Virus record (IMG/VR): IMGVR_UViG_3300004173_000066
Span: 1 to 60,689 of that record
Direction: 5' to 3' (one strand)
Length of the DNA stretch: 60,689 bases
Source: a virus
The translations under genes and the position numbers were made by a program. Positions 9,596-59,495 of this stretch are shown piece after piece; position 1 is the stretch's first letter, and each line of letters opens with the position of its first letter. The notes beneath the pieces were generated by a model. It was given only the letters and a program-made list of their open reading frames with translations, had not been told where the DNA came from and made no database searches.

Positions 9596-9638
9596 GGGAC
9601 GTCTCTGGACGTCTCTGGACGTCTCCGGACGTCCGATC
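9596..9638 (+). repeat. GACGTC array, site A (four hexamers, 10-bp phased)
   Basis: GACGTC at 9598, 9608, 9618 and 9628, each exactly 10 bp from the next, with decamer units like CTGGACGTCT. Lies in an intergenic stretch. It is one of six such sites (A-F) in the window; two others are inside the parA and parB-like genes, so a partition-protein binding site is the favoured reading. Confidence 0.6.
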
Positions 9639-10019: not shown

Positions 10020-10024
10020 GGCCG

Positions 10025-10040
10025 GACGTCTCGGGACGTC
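10025..10040 (+). repeat. GACGTC array, site B (two hexamers, 10-bp phased)
   Basis: GACGTC at 10025 and 10035 within CCGGACGTCT CGGGACGTCC, between the microprotein stop and the GGAGG ribosome site of the small terminase gene. Same 10-bp phase as sites A and C-F. Confidence 0.5.
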
Positions 10041-10053
10041 CCGGAGGTTCTCG

Positions 10054-37207: not shown

Positions 37208-37486
37208 GTGCACGACCACCACCCCAACGCCCTCATGGGCGCGCTCGCGTTCCTGTCCGCTGGCGCTGGCGCCGTTCTTGGCGAGCGGCTCATCTCCGCC
37301 CTCGTCGGCCTCGGGATGAGCCTCCTCGGCTCGCTGCTCTACCAGCTCGCCCAGCGTGCGATCCGCGTCGGGGGTGACGCGCTCGAGCAGCGCGCCCGCC
37401 GCCGCCTCGGCGTCGCCCTCGCGCCCTCGTCGACGGACGCCCCGGGGCGTCCCGAGACGTCCCAGGACGTCCCGCCCGCCGCCTGA
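37208..37486 (+). CDS. Small membrane protein, holin-like (92 aa)
   Basis: GTG 37208. Hydrophobic, small-residue-rich spans NALMGALAFLSAGAGAVLGE and LISALVGLGMSLLGSLLYQL with a basic tail. The size and tail-end location are compatible with a holin. Its last codons are the GACGTC array C (APGRPETSQDVPPAA). Confidence 0.5.
   Translation: MHDHHPNALMGALAFLSAGAGAVLGERLISALVGLGMSLLGSLLYQLAQRAIRVGGDALEQRARRRLGVALAPSSTDAPGRPETSQDVPPAA
37446..37471 (+). repeat. GACGTC array, site C (three decamers)
   Basis: GGCGTC at 37446, GACGTC at 37456 and 37466, 10-bp phased, inside the 3' end of the membrane-protein gene. From 37466 a 21-bp stretch through the TGA is identical to 38585-38605 at site D. Confidence 0.55.
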
Positions 37487-38521: not shown

Positions 38522-38605
38522 ATGGCGTCCCCTGGAGCGGGGGCGCCCGCAGCCCCGCCGCGCTCGTCGCACCGGACGTCCTCGGACGTCCCGCCCGCCG
38601 CCTGA
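38522..38605 (+). CDS. Possible 27-aa reading frame carrying GACGTC site D
   Basis: ATG 38522 to TGA 38603-38605, ending RTSSDVPPAA like the membrane protein at 37208-37486. Probably a relic of a duplication of that gene's 3' end rather than a working gene. Confidence 0.2.
   Translation: MASPGAGAPAAPPRSSHRTSSDVPPAA
38575..38590 (+). repeat. GACGTC array, site D (two hexamers)
   Basis: GACGTC at 38575 and 38585, 10-bp phased, in the gap between the moron terminator and the holin candidate. Shares 21 identical bases with site C. Confidence 0.5.
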
Positions 38606-47595: not shown

Positions 47596-47919
47596 ATGGC
47601 CCCACGTCGGAGCCGCTGCCGATGTCCGCGCCGGCGCCGCTGCCGGGGGATCGACGTCTCGACGTGCGCGCCCCTCCAGTGGGGCACCCTCGACTGCCCG
47701 GTGCGCTGCCTCGCGCTCGAGCGGCTGGACCAGGAGCGGGCGCGGGCGGCCGTGGGGTACGACCCGGACGAGGCTTGGGGCGAGCGGGCCGAGCGGCTCC
47801 GGGCGGCGGACGGCTTCGCGCTCGAGCTCCGGGCGGCGCGCGAGCGGCGGGAGCCGAGCTGCCGCGAAGGAGTGGGGCGCTGGCTCGCGACGGGCGTGAT
47901 GTGCGCCCGCGCCGGGTGA
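47596..47919 (+). CDS. Hypothetical Cys-rich small protein (107 aa)
   Basis: Likely coding because the frame continues as CAPLQWGTLDCPVRCLALER then a regular charged helix. The N-terminal 16 residues are Arg/Cys-rich and the true start may be later. No family known. Confidence 0.45.
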   Translation: MAPRRSRCRCPRRRRCRGIDVSTCAPLQWGTLDCPVRCLALERLDQERARAAVGYDPDEAWGERAERLRAADGFALELRAARERREPSCREGVGRWLATGVMCARAG

Positions 47920-47925
47920 ACGGGG

Positions 47926-48207
47926 CTACGAGTGCCCGCTCGGCGCTCGCGCAGCCGCGGGCGCGACCACGTCCCGCGCGTCGAGTCGCGCGATCGCCTC
48001 ATCGAGGCCGCTCCAGTCCAGCGCATCGGGGCCGGGGCCCGGTGTCCCCGGACCCTCCGCCCCCGCGCAGCGCAGGTAGTCCGGCAACCGTCCGTCGCGA
48101 CGCAGGCACTCCATCACGACGACCCGCCCGGGCACGTCGGCCCCGGCGGCGATCGGCTCCTCGAGCCCGCGTACGAACAACGGCACTTCGGTCCAGCTCC
48201 AGCCCAT
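47926..48207 (-). CDS. Hypothetical small protein (93 aa)
   Basis: ATG 48207 (MGWSWTEVPLFVRGLEEPIA). Folded N-terminal part (VPGRVVVMECLRRDGRLPDY), Pro/Gly linker and helix. Converges with the gene at 47596. No family. Confidence 0.5.
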   Translation of the reverse strand: MGWSWTEVPLFVRGLEEPIAAGADVPGRVVVMECLRRDGRLPDYLRCAGAEGPGTPGPGPDALDWSGLDEAIARLDARDVVAPAAARAPSGHS

Positions 48208-52632: not shown

Positions 52633-53367
52633 CTACCGTCGACGGTAGCCTTCCTCACGGAGCAGTTTTGCCAATTCGAGCATGATAGATCGCATCGCTG
52701 CCAGGGCGGCCGATTCCATCCCTTCGTACTGGAGGTCAGAAAGCTCTGTCGTCCGCTCGCCGTGGGCGACTGCGTGACGTCGTTTGACGAGTTGCGCCAG
52801 CGCCCCTCTGGCTGCCGAGAGCATTTCCGGGTCGCATCCGCAGCGATACAGCAGCCGCTTGAGCAGGATCGGCTCCAGATTGGACTTCGTGTCGAGCGTC
52901 TCGAGCGGCACCTTCAACACGGCGTCGTCGAAGCCCTTCAGCTGGCTCACGAAGGCCGTCTGACGTCCAAGGGTGTGGAGTTCGACGTCGTCGGGCAAGA
53001 GATCCTTGAAGAGGTCAATCTTCCCGTCGGAACGCAAATTCTCAAACTCGGCCGACAGGGAGGCGGCCGCTAGAACGTGCTTCACGTCACCGCGGCGGTG
53101 GCGTCTTTCGTTGATGGCCTGCAGGTAGGTCACGAATGTGTTCTTGCAGAAGCCTTCGAAATGGGCATAGAGCATCACAACCTGCACGCGTCGAAGACTG
53201 TTCAGGCCCGTGAGGTAGGCAGGGTGGCCGGGATGATCGGGGTGAGCGGGACCGTCAGGATCAGTTGGGTCCGCAAGGGCCGCGCGCTGGTTGCCCAGAA
53301 GTCGGATCTCCGCCTCTCGCCAGAGCAGGTCGAGTTCAGCCTGGGCGCGAAACTCCTCCTCGGTCAC
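52633..53367 (-). CDS. HEPN-family RNase toxin candidate, MAE_28990/MAE_18760-like (244 aa)
   Basis: GTG 53367 overlapping the DUF262 stop (GTGA). VVMLYAHFEGFCKNTFVTYL is the family's N-terminal helix; the HEPN active motif Rx4H is seen in KRRHAVAHGE (Arg197, His202). Such HEPN proteins cut RNA and act as toxins or abortive-infection effectors. Residues 33-51 are an Asp/Pro/His-rich loop (DPDGPAHPDHPGHP). Lower GC than the phage core. Last gene of the methyltransferase/DUF262/HEPN set. Confidence 0.75.
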   Translation of the reverse strand: MTEEEFRAQAELDLLWREAEIRLLGNQRAALADPTDPDGPAHPDHPGHPAYLTGLNSLRRVQVVMLYAHFEGFCKNTFVTYLQAINERRHRRGDVKHVLAAASLSAEFENLRSDGKIDLFKDLLPDDVELHTLGRQTAFVSQLKGFDDAVLKVPLETLDTKSNLEPILLKRLLYRCGCDPEMLSAARGALAQLVKRRHAVAHGERTTELSDLQYEGMESAALAAMRSIMLELAKLLREEGYRRR

Positions 53368-54638
53368 GAGACAGTCGCCACCCGCTTTGCGACTAGTTCA
53401 AGCCGACGCCTCAGAGGACCAGCATAGTTGAGGCCCCCGCCCACCGTCTCCTTCCTGAACGCTGGCTCCTGCCGCAGGTTGCGCAGCGCCTCCCCGAGCG
53501 CCTGCATTTGCGCAACGTTTGAAGCATCGAGTCGACCGAGGTCCCCCTGAATGCCGACCGTAAAGGCCTCGAAAACCAATACGGAGAAATTCGTATAGAC
53601 CTTGTTCGACTTGTCGACCGCTGCAAACGGCGCATCTCCGAGGGCGGTCGTCAGGATGTCGAAGGTCTTCTCGAAAACCTTCCGCTCTTCCGCTCGGTCG
53701 AAATGCAAAGCGTCCTCGGTGGTGCGGGAGACGCCTTCCATGTACTCGGTGAGAAATTCGCTGAGATCGTGCTTGAAGACGCGTCCCCAGTTCTTGAACG
53801 CGAAAAATCTCAGGACGCACTCTTGGTCGTAACGTCGGCTGATCTTCTCCTTTGATAGGTGCGCGATGCTCTTTCGGTAAGGCGGGTACTCACTCAGGCT
53901 GATGAGGAAGTTGTTGAACTGATCGCTGAGCAGTCGGATGGTGCAATTGCGTACTTCCTGCTCGCTCAGGGTCTCGCCCCCCGTGTTCAGACGTTTGAAC
54001 ATGTGGTACCGGAGTTTCGGGTCGCTGGACTTTCGGATCAATTCGACCCGAACCGACGCGCGTTTCAGCGCGAATCTCACGGGGCTCGGTAGCGTCTCGT
54101 AGGTGTGCCCATTGAGTTCGGGAACGATGTCGCATTCAATAAGCGTGAGCAGAGGCCCTGAGCCGGCCGGCGGGATCTGGAACTCAGCCTCAGCTGTTCC
54201 GACGGTCGGCACGGGAGTGCCGACCTCGACCTCCTCAGAAGTGTCGATCTCCACGGTGGCCTCGGCATCACCCTTGGCGGCGTCGGCCCCACCAGGGGGC
54301 AACCCTACGAACTCTTCGGCCAATGCACCGCGGAAGTGAAAGTAGGAGGAGAGGCGTTGGAGGCCGTCGATCAATTCGAAAACGCCCGTGCTCCGCTCGA
54401 TGGCATAGATCGGCGGGATCGGCATCTCGAGTATCAACGACTCGATGAATCGCGACTGCTTCTCGACGGGCCAGCGGAACAGGCGCTGGAAGTCGGGCGT
54501 GATGACGAGCTCCTTGTTCTCGTACATGTCGAGGAGCTCGTTGAAGGAGAGGTCGAGGGTGCGCGTCTTAACGGTCTTCGACAGCTCGTCGATCAGGGGG
54601 ATCAGGGTCGAGCCGGGTGTGGTGGGGGGCTTTGCCAT
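53364..54638 (-). CDS. DUF262 (ParB/GmrS-like) protein (424 aa)
   Basis: ATG 54638. SFNELLDMYENKELVITPDF then QRLFRWPVEKQSRFIESLIL and FELIDGLQRLSSY (DGLQR 91-95) define DUF262. The DGxxR element is the nucleotide-handling motif of this ParB-like fold. Residues 100-165 are an acidic insert. Later FKRLNTGGETLSEQEVRNCT is also typical. There is no C-terminal HNH (DUF1524/GmrD) domain, so the nuclease partner may be the HEPN protein. Overlaps the methyltransferase by 71 bp. Confidence 0.8.
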   Translation of the reverse strand: MAKPPTTPGSTLIPLIDELSKTVKTRTLDLSFNELLDMYENKELVITPDFQRLFRWPVEKQSRFIESLILEMPIPPIYAIERSTGVFELIDGLQRLSSYFHFRGALAEEFVGLPPGGADAAKGDAEATVEIDTSEEVEVGTPVPTVGTAEAEFQIPPAGSGPLLTLIECDIVPELNGHTYETLPSPVRFALKRASVRVELIRKSSDPKLRYHMFKRLNTGGETLSEQEVRNCTIRLLSDQFNNFLISLSEYPPYRKSIAHLSKEKISRRYDQECVLRFFAFKNWGRVFKHDLSEFLTEYMEGVSRTTEDALHFDRAEERKVFEKTFDILTTALGDAPFAAVDKSNKVYTNFSVLVFEAFTVGIQGDLGRLDASNVAQMQALGEALRNLRQEPAFRKETVGGGLNYAGPLRRRLELVAKRVATVS

Positions 54639-56147: not shown

Positions 56148-56492
56148 TCACCGCTCGAACCAAGCCAATAGCGCAGCCTCGACCACGTTCGACTGCTCGC
56201 GCCCTTCGTTCCGGCAGAGGCGTGTGAGCGCCTCGGCCGTGTCCTCGCTGAGGTAGACCGTCATCCGTCGTCGCACCGCGCCGCTCTTCCTCGCCACGAG
56301 CACCTTCGACCCTTGCGGCGCGCGCGGAGCCGATGTTGGGACGTCCCGAGACGTCCCCGGACGTCCGGGCGTCGCGCGCGTACGCCCCTCCTGGATGAAC
56401 CCCTCCACCACCCCCGGGTCGACGGGCGGCGCCGCGGCGAACTGCGACGGGGCGCGCACGGTCGCGGCGGGGCGCTTCGAGCGCGCGCTCAT
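56148..56492 (-). CDS. ParB-like centromere-binding RHH protein (114 aa)
   Basis: ATG 56492 overlaps the ParA stop (ATGA). A disordered N-terminal 70 residues ends in a ribbon-helix-helix RRRMTVYLSEDTAEALTRLC, then RNEGREQSNVVEAALLAWF. Small RHH partners of ParA (ParG, omega type) have this layout: a flexible arm that stimulates the ATPase and an RHH dimer that binds short phased repeats. The GACGTC array E is inside this gene, so it could autoregulate. Confidence 0.75.
   Translation of the reverse strand: MSARSKRPAATVRAPSQFAAAPPVDPGVVEGFIQEGRTRATPGRPGTSRDVPTSAPRAPQGSKVLVARKSGAVRRRMTVYLSEDTAEALTRLCRNEGREQSNVVEAALLAWFER
56340..56373 (+). repeat. GACGTC array, site E (three hexamers plus GGCGTC)
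   Basis: GACGTC at 56340, 56350 and 56360 on an exact 10-bp phase; GGCGTC at 56368. It codes for GRPGTSRDVPTS in the disordered arm of the RHH protein, where sequence is free to carry a binding site. Confidence 0.6.
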
Positions 56493-57193
56493 CGCAGCGC
56501 CTCGAGCTCGTCGACGAGCGCCCGCACCTCGTCGGCCGCCGCGCTCTCCGGTGCGTAGGTCGTGGGCCCCAGGCCCGCGGCGGGCGCCTCCTGGTACGTC
56601 ACCCGGAACGCGAGCTCGGCGGAGAGCACCGCGAGGCCGCTCTGGGCGAGGACGTCGCGCACGGCGCGCCCGACGATCGTCCCGGGTTGCTTGCGGGTGA
56701 TGAGCACGCGCGCCAGCAGCTCGGGCCGGAGCGCCTGGGCCTTCCTCACGAGCTCGAGCGAGTCGGCGATCGCCCAGGTGTCGAGGGTCGAGGGGCCGCA
56801 GGGGATCACCACCAGGTGCGCCACCATCAGCACTGCCCGCTGCACATCGTCGAGGCGCGGCGGGCAGTCGATCACGGTCACGTCGTACTGCGCGGCGAGC
56901 GCCGGGAGCTGCCCCGGGCGATGCAGCCCCGCGCCCATCGCGACCACGGTGGGGATCTCCGTCCCGAGCTCCCCGGCGACGTCGGCCCAGGTGCGCGCCG
57001 AGCCCTGCGGGTCCGTGTCGACGAGCAGCACCCGGCGGCCGCGGGCCTGCCACTCGCACGCCGTCGCGATGGCGGAGGTCGTCTTGCCCGCGCCGCCCTT
57101 CTGCCCGGCGAAGGCGAGGATGCGGGGGGAGGGGGGCGGGGCGTTCGCAGACGTCCTGGGACGCCTCCGGGCGTCCGGGCGGGGGGCACTCAT
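56489..57193 (-). CDS. parA: ParA-family partition ATPase (234 aa)
   Basis: ATG 57193 with ATGA overlap. Deviant Walker A QKGGAGKTT (31-39), DTDPQGSARTWA (59-70), VTVIDCPPRLDDVQ, and LITRKQPGT near the C terminus. No N-terminal HTH, so it is the small (type Ib) ParA, which normally pairs with an RHH ParB-like protein, as here. Moves or anchors extrachromosomal copies on the nucleoid. First of five chained leftward genes ending in the HEPN protein. Confidence 0.9.
   Translation of the reverse strand: MSAPRPDARRRPRTSANAPPPSPRILAFAGQKGGAGKTTSAIATACEWQARGRRVLLVDTDPQGSARTWADVAGELGTEIPTVVAMGAGLHRPGQLPALAAQYDVTVIDCPPRLDDVQRAVLMVAHLVVIPCGPSTLDTWAIADSLELVRKAQALRPELLARVLITRKQPGTIVGRAVRDVLAQSGLAVLSAELAFRVTYQEAPAAGLGPTTYAPESAAADEVRALVDELEALR
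57150..57175 (+). repeat. GACGTC-type array, site F
   Basis: GACGTC at 57150, GACGCC at 57160, GGCGTC at 57170: same 10-bp phase, weaker matches. Codes for the disordered N-terminal 20 residues of ParA, about 20-40 bp after its start, a natural operator position. Confidence 0.5.
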
Positions 57194-57489
57194 CGGCGCC
57201 TCGCGCGGTTGGCGAGCTGCCGCTGCTCGCTGCGGTTGCGGCCCCCAGCGCCGCCCAGCCGGAAGGCCGCGGCACGCGCGGTCATCGTCCCGAGCACGAC
57301 GGCGCGGGCGGTCGCCTGCGCGTCGTCCAGCGCCCTCCGGAGGCGCCCGTCGAGCGCCGTCGCCTCTTCGTCCGTCCAGCTCCGGCCCTCGCCCTGGTGA
57401 GGCCCGGCGTGGCCTCGCCGGAGCGCGCACGCGAGGTCGTGGGGGTGCGCGGCGATCCCGGCACCGCACTCGTTGTTCCAGCCGTCCAT
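57190..57489 (-). CDS. Small Cys/His protein upstream of parA (99 aa)
   Basis: ATG 57489; stop overlaps parA's ATG. WNNECGAGIAAHPHDLACAL, then RRGHAGPHQG: a CxnC...HxGPH pattern that can bind zinc. Helical second half. Same operon as parA; role unknown. Confidence 0.6.
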   Translation of the reverse strand: MDGWNNECGAGIAAHPHDLACALRRGHAGPHQGEGRSWTDEEATALDGRLRRALDDAQATARAVVLGTMTARAAAFRLGGAGGRNRSEQRQLANRARRR

Positions 57490-57576
57490 TCATTCCCTCC
57501 ATCGCGGCCCGAGCGGCCGCAGCAGCCAACCGAACACCACCGCGAGGATCGCGGGCACGGCCAGCAAGCCCGTCAC
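57490..57576 (-). CDS. Membrane microprotein (28 aa)
   Basis: GTG 57576 overlapping the upstream stop by four bases; TGA 57490-57492 directly before the next ATG. VTGLLAVPAILAVVFGWLLR then PLGPRWRE: a single membrane span with basic end. Confidence 0.5.
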   Translation of the reverse strand: MTGLLAVPAILAVVFGWLLRPLGPRWRE

Positions 57577-57818
57577 GTCCACACCTCGACGATCGTCGGG
57601 TCGTCACCCGCCATCCGGCCGAGCGACACCACCCACGGCGGGAGGAGCGCGCGGGCCTCGTCGAGCGATGCCGCGCCGTGGCTCTCGCAGGGCGTGGAGG
57701 CCATGGGGCCGATCTCCCAGCGGCGCACGAAGTAGAGGGTGTCGACGTCGCGTGCCCCGCGGTAGATCACCCACTGCGAGAGCGCGCCGGGCGCGGTGGA
57801 CTGCCAGGAGGGCGTCAC
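57573..57818 (-). CDS. Hypothetical protein (81 aa)
   Basis: GTG 57818 with GTGA overlap. Beta/alpha mix (LSQWVIYRGARDVDTLYFVR; SLDEARALLPPWVVSLGRMA). No family. Part of the leftward operon that leads into parA. Confidence 0.55.
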   Translation of the reverse strand: MTPSWQSTAPGALSQWVIYRGARDVDTLYFVRRWEIGPMASTPCESHGAASLDEARALLPPWVVSLGRMAGDDPTIVEVWT

Positions 57819-58159
57819 TTCGGCTCCCCCTTGCGGGCGCGCCGCTCGTTCAGGTCCACGACCTTGGCGACGCCCGGCACCCCGGGGGCGACCCCGCGTC
57901 GGCGTAGGAGCTCGAGCAGCTCGCCGGCGAGGTCGAGGTCGTCCCCGGCGAGGGCGGCTAGGACCGCGGCCCGGACGGCCGCCTCGGGGGCCCCGACGGC
58001 GACGTCTGGATTGGCACCAGGATTGGTACCAGCCTGCTCCCGGCCGGGCGCGGGCGGCTGCGGGGGTGGTACCGGGAGGGATTCTTCTGGCCGCTCAGGC
58101 GGCGTTTCGGTACCTGTCGTTACGTCTCGATACGTACTGATTGGGTTCGAATCCCTCAC
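57815..58159 (-). CDS. Protein whose 5' end lies in the attachment core (114 aa)
   Basis: Frame open from within the integrase gene. GTG 58159 gives VRDSNPISTYRDV..., with its first codons inside the tRNA-like core; an ATG at 58285 is also in frame. A Pro-rich stretch, then a well-formed helix pair (VRAAVLAALAGDDLDLAGEL; LELLRRRG) and VVDLNERRARKG. First gene of the operon running to parA. After integration its start region would be replaced by the matching host core and flank, so expression may differ between free and integrated forms. Confidence 0.5.
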   Translation of the reverse strand: MRDSNPISTYRDVTTGTETPPERPEESLPVPPPQPPAPGREQAGTNPGANPDVAVGAPEAAVRAAVLAALAGDDLDLAGELLELLRRRGVAPGVPGVAKVVDLNERRARKGEPK

Positions 58160-59495
58160 CCCGAACCACGATTTCAGCGGAAATCGAGGGCCTTTTCGCG
58201 AGGCCCGTTTTGCTCTGGGACCGACTCTGGGACCGGCGGTGAGGGTCTTCTGAGGGATTTGCTGCGACGGACGACGCCGCGCCACCCTCGATGAGGACCG
58301 TCGGCAGCGGCGGGAACACCTGCCCGAATCCGACGCGGAGATTCTCGGCCTCGCGGACGTACATCATCGTCGTCGTGAGGTGCTTGTGCCCCGCCCGGTG
58401 CATGATGCGCAGGGGCTGGTCTCCGCGGATGGCCGCCCAGGTTGCGCCGGTGGCGCGGAGGTCGTGGTAGGTGAGGTTCCGGCGGGTGGCGTCGGAGGCG
58501 AAGAGGGCGGTGCGCGCGACGCCTGCCACCTGCAGGTTGGCGCGGAGTTCGTCGGCGCGGTCCTTGTCGAGGGGCCACGGCTCGAAGACGCGCGTCGCCT
58601 TCGGCCGCTCGGCCCGCATCGCCCTCAGCATCGGCAGCAGCTCGGGCTCGATCTCGAACTCCCGCGGCGCCTTGCCCTTCGGGGCGCGCACCTCCCGCGT
58701 GTTGTGGTCGACCGCGCAGTGCAGTGAGATCACGCGGTGCTCGAGGTCGACGGACTCCCACTGGAGCACCTCGAGCTCGCCGGCGCGCGGGTACAGGTAG
58801 ATCGCGAGCGCGTAGGCGCGGCGCACCGCGAGGGGGATTCCCTCGCAGGTCACCAGCTGCAGGAACTCGCTGGGATACAGGTACGGCTTGCTCTTGACCG
58901 TGCCCCGATCGGGCGGCTCGACGTCGAGGCACGGGTTGCTGTCACGGCAACGGAGCGAGAGGTTCTTCGACTTGAAGGCGTCGCGCATCGCGCGAGACAC
59001 GAGGCCCCAAGCGTTCTGCGCGGTCTTCCAGGCGAGCTCCTCAGCCTGCACCTGGGCGTCGATCCACTCGACCCACCGCTCTATGTCGACCTTGGTGATC
59101 TCCACCATGGCCAGCTTGCCGAGGCGCGGCGTGATCCACTTCTTGAAGCGCCCGATGTCGGCCCGGCCGCCGCGGAGCCCACGCGCCTTGCGCGCTTCGA
59201 ACCAACGGACCGACCACTCCTGCAGCGTCTCGCCCTTCTTCACCTCGCCGTTGGAGCGACCCGCGCTGCCCTTCCGCTTCAAGAGCGAGGTGATCTTCCC
59301 GGTGCGCGCCCGCTCGGCGAGTCCGAGGGCAGCTTTCGTGGCCTTCTCGCGATCGTCGTGGCCGAGGGTCGCCGGGAGGCGCATCCACACACGCTTGCCG
59401 TCGATGCGAACGCGGCAGCGCCAGTAGCCCTCGTCCTTCGAGTCGTCCCGGCTGCCGACCCACTCGAGCGACCCGGTGGTGTTCGCGAGGCTCAT
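58095..59495 (-). CDS. int: Tyrosine integrase (466 aa)
   Basis: ATG 59495. N-terminal arm-binding strand region (YWRCRVRIDGKRVWMRLPAT), a core-binding helical domain (residues 90-185), catalytic domain with Arg237 (YLYPRAGELEVLQWESVD), HDLRATGATW (His344, Arg347), RAGHKHLTTTMMYV (His370 and Tyr379 nucleophile). The last 30 residues (EIVVRGEGFEPNQY...) are encoded by the antisense of the tRNA-like core, a known feature of integrases whose gene ends at attP. Confidence 0.92.
   Translation of the reverse strand: MSLANTTGSLEWVGSRDDSKDEGYWRCRVRIDGKRVWMRLPATLGHDDREKATKAALGLAERARTGKITSLLKRKGSAGRSNGEVKKGETLQEWSVRWFEARKARGLRGGRADIGRFKKWITPRLGKLAMVEITKVDIERWVEWIDAQVQAEELAWKTAQNAWGLVSRAMRDAFKSKNLSLRCRDSNPCLDVEPPDRGTVKSKPYLYPSEFLQLVTCEGIPLAVRRAYALAIYLYPRAGELEVLQWESVDLEHRVISLHCAVDHNTREVRAPKGKAPREFEIEPELLPMLRAMRAERPKATRVFEPWPLDKDRADELRANLQVAGVARTALFASDATRRNLTYHDLRATGATWAAIRGDQPLRIMHRAGHKHLTTTMMYVREAENLRVGFGQVFPPLPTVLIEGGAASSVAANPSEDPHRRSQSRSQSKTGLAKRPSISAEIVVRGEGFEPNQYVSRRNDRYRNAA
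58145..58168 (+). other. attP-like core: 3' end of a tRNA gene
   Basis: T-loop TTCGAAT (58146-58152), T-stem 3' strand CCCTC, acceptor 3' strand ACCCCGA, discriminator A and CCA (58166-58168) in exact register. The 5' halves of the T-stem and acceptor (expected GAGGG and TCGGGGT) are missing or mismatched, so this is only the 3' part, as in an attP or far-side att site. Lies inside the integrase gene's 3' end. Confidence 0.75.

Follow-up and report, generated by a model that had tools for sequence, protein, structure and literature searches.

The window analysed here, a 60,689-base IMG/VR virus record, carries on its minus strand an ORF for a tyrosine integrase (58095..59495), assigned by its family matches (Phage_integrase PF00589, E 4.3e-7; phrog_1, E 3.7e-41). 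When viral contigs were searched with only the integrase as query no relative came up, and alignments were required to find any. Inside this ORF, downstream of the catalytic domain, lies a tRNA-like sequence that the first-pass annotation had placed at 58145-58168. That 24-mer occurs once in the window (0.00 copies expected in shuffles), and alignment with host loci carries the shared block on to 58143, giving a core of 26 bp (58143..58168, plus strand; GGGTTCGAATCCCTCACCCCGAACCA) that matches the 3' end of tRNA-Gln(TTG); the element recognised in the annotation is real and unique, with its left edge now at 58143. The same annotation had the core encode the end of the integrase. The ORF does cross the core, but runs on for 15 codons to a TGA at 58097-58095, so that its stop falls 48 bp past the left edge of the core, which lies near the end of the gene and not at it.

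The core corresponds exactly to the 3' end of tRNA-Gln(TTG) at locus L003, in a genome recorded as Myxococcaceae bacterium GW715_bin.15, and the 24-mer was found with two or fewer mismatches in 9 of the 13 genomes of that family (host-type Myxococcota), mostly at tRNA-Gln(TTG) genes. Given that a tRNA scan of the window found no tRNA at the core, the site is to be read as attP rather than attL. These observations support a role for this sequence as the attachment core of a temperate phage that would use tRNA-Gln(TTG). Elsewhere in the window, ARAGORN calls a tRNA-Ala(cgc) at 47853-47946, of an unusual length (94 nt).

The core is flanked on both sides by pairs of TGGNACC repeats with a 12-base spacing. 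On one side are two TGGGACC repeats (58216..58234, plus strand), proposed as P' arm-type integrase sites, the motif having been picked after the repeats were seen; on the other, a repeat search gave TGGCACC and TGGTACC, also 12 bp apart (58012..58030, plus strand), as proposed P arm-type sites, and an extra copy of TGGTACC on the P side (58067..58073, plus strand). With the motif defined post hoc, 6 of the 15 copies of TGGNACC/GGTNCCA in the window (two of them overlapping) fall within 281 bases around the core, a clustering whose P value serves as no more than a guide, and the repeats look like arm-type integrase sites. A terminator-like hairpin with a T run (58188..58206, plus strand), of a kind found once in the window against 0.8 expected in shuffles, lies just past the core, where in a lysogen it would come directly after the reconstituted tRNA-Gln.

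The P-side repeats lie inside a second ORF, of 114 aa (57815..58159, minus strand). The first-pass annotation had this ORF begin in the core in a frame other than that of the integrase; it does cross the core in the +1 frame relative to the integrase, whereas its start is less certain, since the frame is open upstream as far as a stop at 58366, so that the GTG at 58159, within the core, is a choice. No clear ribosome-binding site was seen at this GTG. Coding periodicity is strong in the C-terminal half of the ORF (57815-57979; GC1/2/3 of 0.91/0.49/0.93) and absent between the core and the arm sites (57980-58141; 0.78/0.65/0.63). In the AlphaFold2 model little is folded other than two helices, at residues 57-71 and 75-87, with a pLDDT of about 84-95; this predicted helical hairpin (residues 57-87; 57899..57991, minus strand) overlaps the stretch with gene-like periodicity.

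Sequence profiles built from the C-terminal tails of related integrases, with the window left out, ranked the 114-aa ORF first among 754 ORFs, both with five tails (E 8.7e-5, the next at 0.29) and with ten (E 4.7e-6, the next at 0.036). Under leave-one-out at E < 0.01, five of the ten other tails were recovered along with that of the window (L035, L037, L058, L107 and L108), and those of L085, L056, L100, L109 and L110 were not; the tails are short, alanine-rich and divergent, and this partial recovery marks the family as a loose one, for which position carries part of the argument. On these grounds the 114-aa ORF is most likely the detached C-terminal tail of the phage's own integrase, lying beyond attP. 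That it is no gene at all, and merely attP arm DNA left open by chance in a G+C-rich genome, would agree with the missing periodicity between core and arm sites, with the GTG that has no clear ribosome-binding site, and with the fact that part of the peptide (GTNPGANP) is a translation of the TGGNACC repeats; we nevertheless hold this to be very unlikely in view of the periodicity of the C-terminal half, the profile similarity to other tails and the confidently predicted hairpin. Excisionase and repressor were also considered as identities for the 114-aa ORF and set aside, as it has no family match.

Among the relatives on phage contigs there are nine (L056, L058, L100, L107, L108, L109, L110, L130 and L132) in which the integrase is open in frame through the tRNA-like core and into a C-terminal tail, a count to be read with the knowledge that tails were mostly found by reading along the integrase frame, which favours fused cases; in other relatives the integrase stops before or at the core, or no core was recognised. 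The fused arrangement of integrase, core and tail is common, then, and not universal. In the window and in all seven relatives tested, periodicity is clear in the integrase part and in the tail domain and weak between them. Consistent with this, the AlphaFold2 model of L108 shows the enzyme folded, residues 450-543 across the core disordered, and residues 546-580 as a hairpin of two helices with a pLDDT near 93. Open frames also continue past a tRNA-Leu core in L087, which has no clear tail, and in L084, where no similarity to the window tail was detected. The record of one related phage (L061, G386:C1:1) begins exactly at the core, as would be expected if the assembly had broken where the free and integrated forms diverge; at its opposite end this G386 record held no attR.

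Downstream of the 114-aa ORF, on the same strand, are an 81-aa ORF that overlaps its end (57573..57818) and a 99-aa ORF (57190..57489), both without a family, followed by a ParA-type ATPase (56489..57193) and a ribbon-helix-helix (CopG-type) protein (56148..56492), both with family matches. Further real matches near this operon are to a methyltransferase, a GmrSD_N protein and a HEPN protein. The tail thus precedes the operon by position, and any membership of the operon is putative. The first-pass annotation had made the 114-aa ORF the gene that heads the parA operon, and had proposed that integration would swap the operon's upstream flank, so that partition and defence genes could be switched between the free and integrated states. 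One element of this holds: from the placement of the core, everything below 58143 must be parted from the integrase on integration and gain a chromosomal flank, so the upstream flank of the operon has to change. The operon also follows directly, in the same orientation and with overlapping ORFs, and its ParA and ribbon-helix-helix genes have genuine matches, as do those for the methyltransferase, GmrSD_N and HEPN proteins. The leader assignment itself is not supported by comparison with relatives: the ORF is homologous to integrase tails, the relatives of ParA in G010, G001 and G012 (3/3) have other genes upstream and lack the 114-aa ORF, and the GTG at 58159 lies within the core, where integration would keep it. 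We therefore regard as improbable an independent leader gene whose promoter region is exchanged on integration, and a switch acting through it.

Searches around the operon gave little further. No relative was returned by a ParA search of viral contigs; a DNA search of the 13 host-family genomes with the 5' region of the operon gave only short matches, under about 110 bases; and no promoter-like site was found in a scan that does not cover myxobacterial promoters. The GmrSD_N protein has strong matches to NsnA and PD-T4-2_A, and this GmrSD_N/NsnA-like protein adjoins a HEPN protein of MAE_28990 type (52633-54638); judged from these matches, the two are likely to form a phage-carried defence pair. 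Clusters of GRGACGTCY-type repeats, several at a period of about 10 bp, lie at 9596-9634, 10024-10042, 37434-37472, 38574-38591, 56338-56366 and 57138-57180 (18 exact matches in the window against 6.5 expected), and these clusters, two of which fall within the parA and ribbon-helix-helix genes, may be centromere or operator sites.

As a check, the first-pass annotation had pointed to attL and attR in an integrated relative, and attL and attR-like copies are indeed present in the host genomes. One attL copy is in G011, where an integrase 94% identical to that of the window abuts an intact tRNA-Gln(TTG) with its 3' end; next to the tRNA this 3' end has been replaced, so that the protein ends EGFEPP*, and the copy carries one internal stop (TAG). 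Other tRNA-Gln genes are flanked by short remnants resembling the 3' region of the window integrase. Cores without a tRNA that would fit attR were found for tRNA-Gln (G011:C112, G003:C36) and for tRNA-Leu (G011:C225, G012:C1121, G007:C35), and at L035, L037 and L085 such attR-like cores are followed by tail-type ORFs; within a single genome the attL and the attR-like end are on separate contigs, so that they may come from distinct elements. A phylum-wide pattern search for tRNA-less cores returned G003 only, and no lysogen of the window phage itself was found in the host genomes searched, so its integrated state is described here by analogy with these copies. Two tRNA-Leu(GAG) loci have layouts of their own. 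In G001:C132 (L004 and L090), about 62 kb lie between the tRNA (243918) and a core copy (305540), and an integrase stands next to the far core copy in the opposite layout; in G008:C34 (L070), two copies of the tRNA lie 234 bp apart, possibly from past insertions.

The window is the sole case found in which integrase and tail are in different frames, the integrase stopping at 58095 and the tail lying in the +1 frame; when 9,136 ORFs were scanned with the profile, no other out-of-frame tail emerged. At the G011 tRNA-Gln site (RGEGFE), and at tRNA-Leu in G011 (CEEGDLNP) and G012 (VRGGGLEP), the frame of the attL integrase is also the frame that is open at attR. At L003 and L049 the distance from arm to core is one base shorter than in the window and in L010, and the core is entered in the frame of the window's tail, which fits an exchange at attP between two lineages. 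The mismatch most likely arose either through such an exchange, the integrases of the two phages having differed in the frame in which they enter the core, or through an indel.

A one-base error or recent indel in the window would make the real phage the owner of an ordinary fused integrase with tail, of the Mx8 type. All nine relatives with an intact core and tail have them fused in frame (9/9), and both frames of the window are open for more than 200 bases, so that a single indel would join them. L010, from an independent genome, carries the same integrase frame through the core, which makes an error ahead of the core unlikely; one could still lie in the short stretch past the core, which no close relative spans. 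We consider this explanation possible, though on the unlikely side. Somewhat more doubtful is a split integrase, in which the tail would be made as a separate polypeptide from the GTG in the core, or by a +1 frameshift near the core, and would act in trans and, in contrast to the fused tail of Mx8-type phages, survive integration, the start codon being retained because it lies inside the core. Frameshifting at the integrase stop itself was set aside, there being no recognised slippery site. At the core edge there is a CCC-A, a candidate slip that would give the tail frame.

The window probably holds the attP of a temperate phage of myxobacterial type that integrates at tRNA-Gln(TTG), with an Mx8-like integrase whose tail is the 114-aa ORF. 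The region would then read, in order, as catalytic part, P' arm sites, core, P arm sites and, on the far side, a small helical-hairpin tail. On integration all sequence past the core would be exchanged; the prophage integrase would then end a few codons into the antisense strand of the tRNA, and the tail region would be left at the opposite end of the prophage. With the tail in the +1 frame, the integrase of the free form would also be made without a fused tail, unless the frame shifts during translation. Editing of the integrase by the recombination itself, as in Mx8, is suggested to be common among these phages and to come with a small, recognisable tail domain. A role for the tail thereby becomes testable: it may favour integration over excision, and its loss may help to hold the prophage in place. 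With its out-of-frame tail, the window provides a natural experiment on whether the enzyme needs the tail to be joined to it.

In mycobacteriophages of the BPs type, the gene that crosses attP is a repressor. The genes crossing attP in the window differ in being the integrase and its tail, neither with a family match to a repressor or HTH protein. The systems are alike in that, in the integration-dependent immunity of phages such as BPs, attP lies inside a coding gene and integration changes the protein (PMC4557955). With the archaeal integrases of SSV type the shared feature is an integrase gene that reaches across attP and that integration alters (PMC4383910). The core of the window lies downstream of the catalytic domain. 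SSV integration, in contrast, splits the integrase well inside the gene.

The nearest parallel is the myxophage Mx8, where attP forms part of the integrase coding sequence and integration produces a new 3' end and an altered specificity (PMC6070905); Islander likewise describes the integrases of Mx8 and SSV as extending across attP (PMC4383910). In the Mx8 record (NC_003085) the integrase ORF continues across a tRNA-like core that has repeats on its integrase side, and the window shares with it an attP inside the integrase and a core past the catalytic domain of a tyrosine recombinase. The target tRNA of Mx8 is not that of the window phage, and no sequence similarity between the two tails was detected. 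A single ORF in Mx8 encodes both catalytic part and tail, whereas the tail of the window is in another frame. Read from its sequence, the window belongs with Mx8 as a variant that lacks one defining feature, the in-frame fusion.
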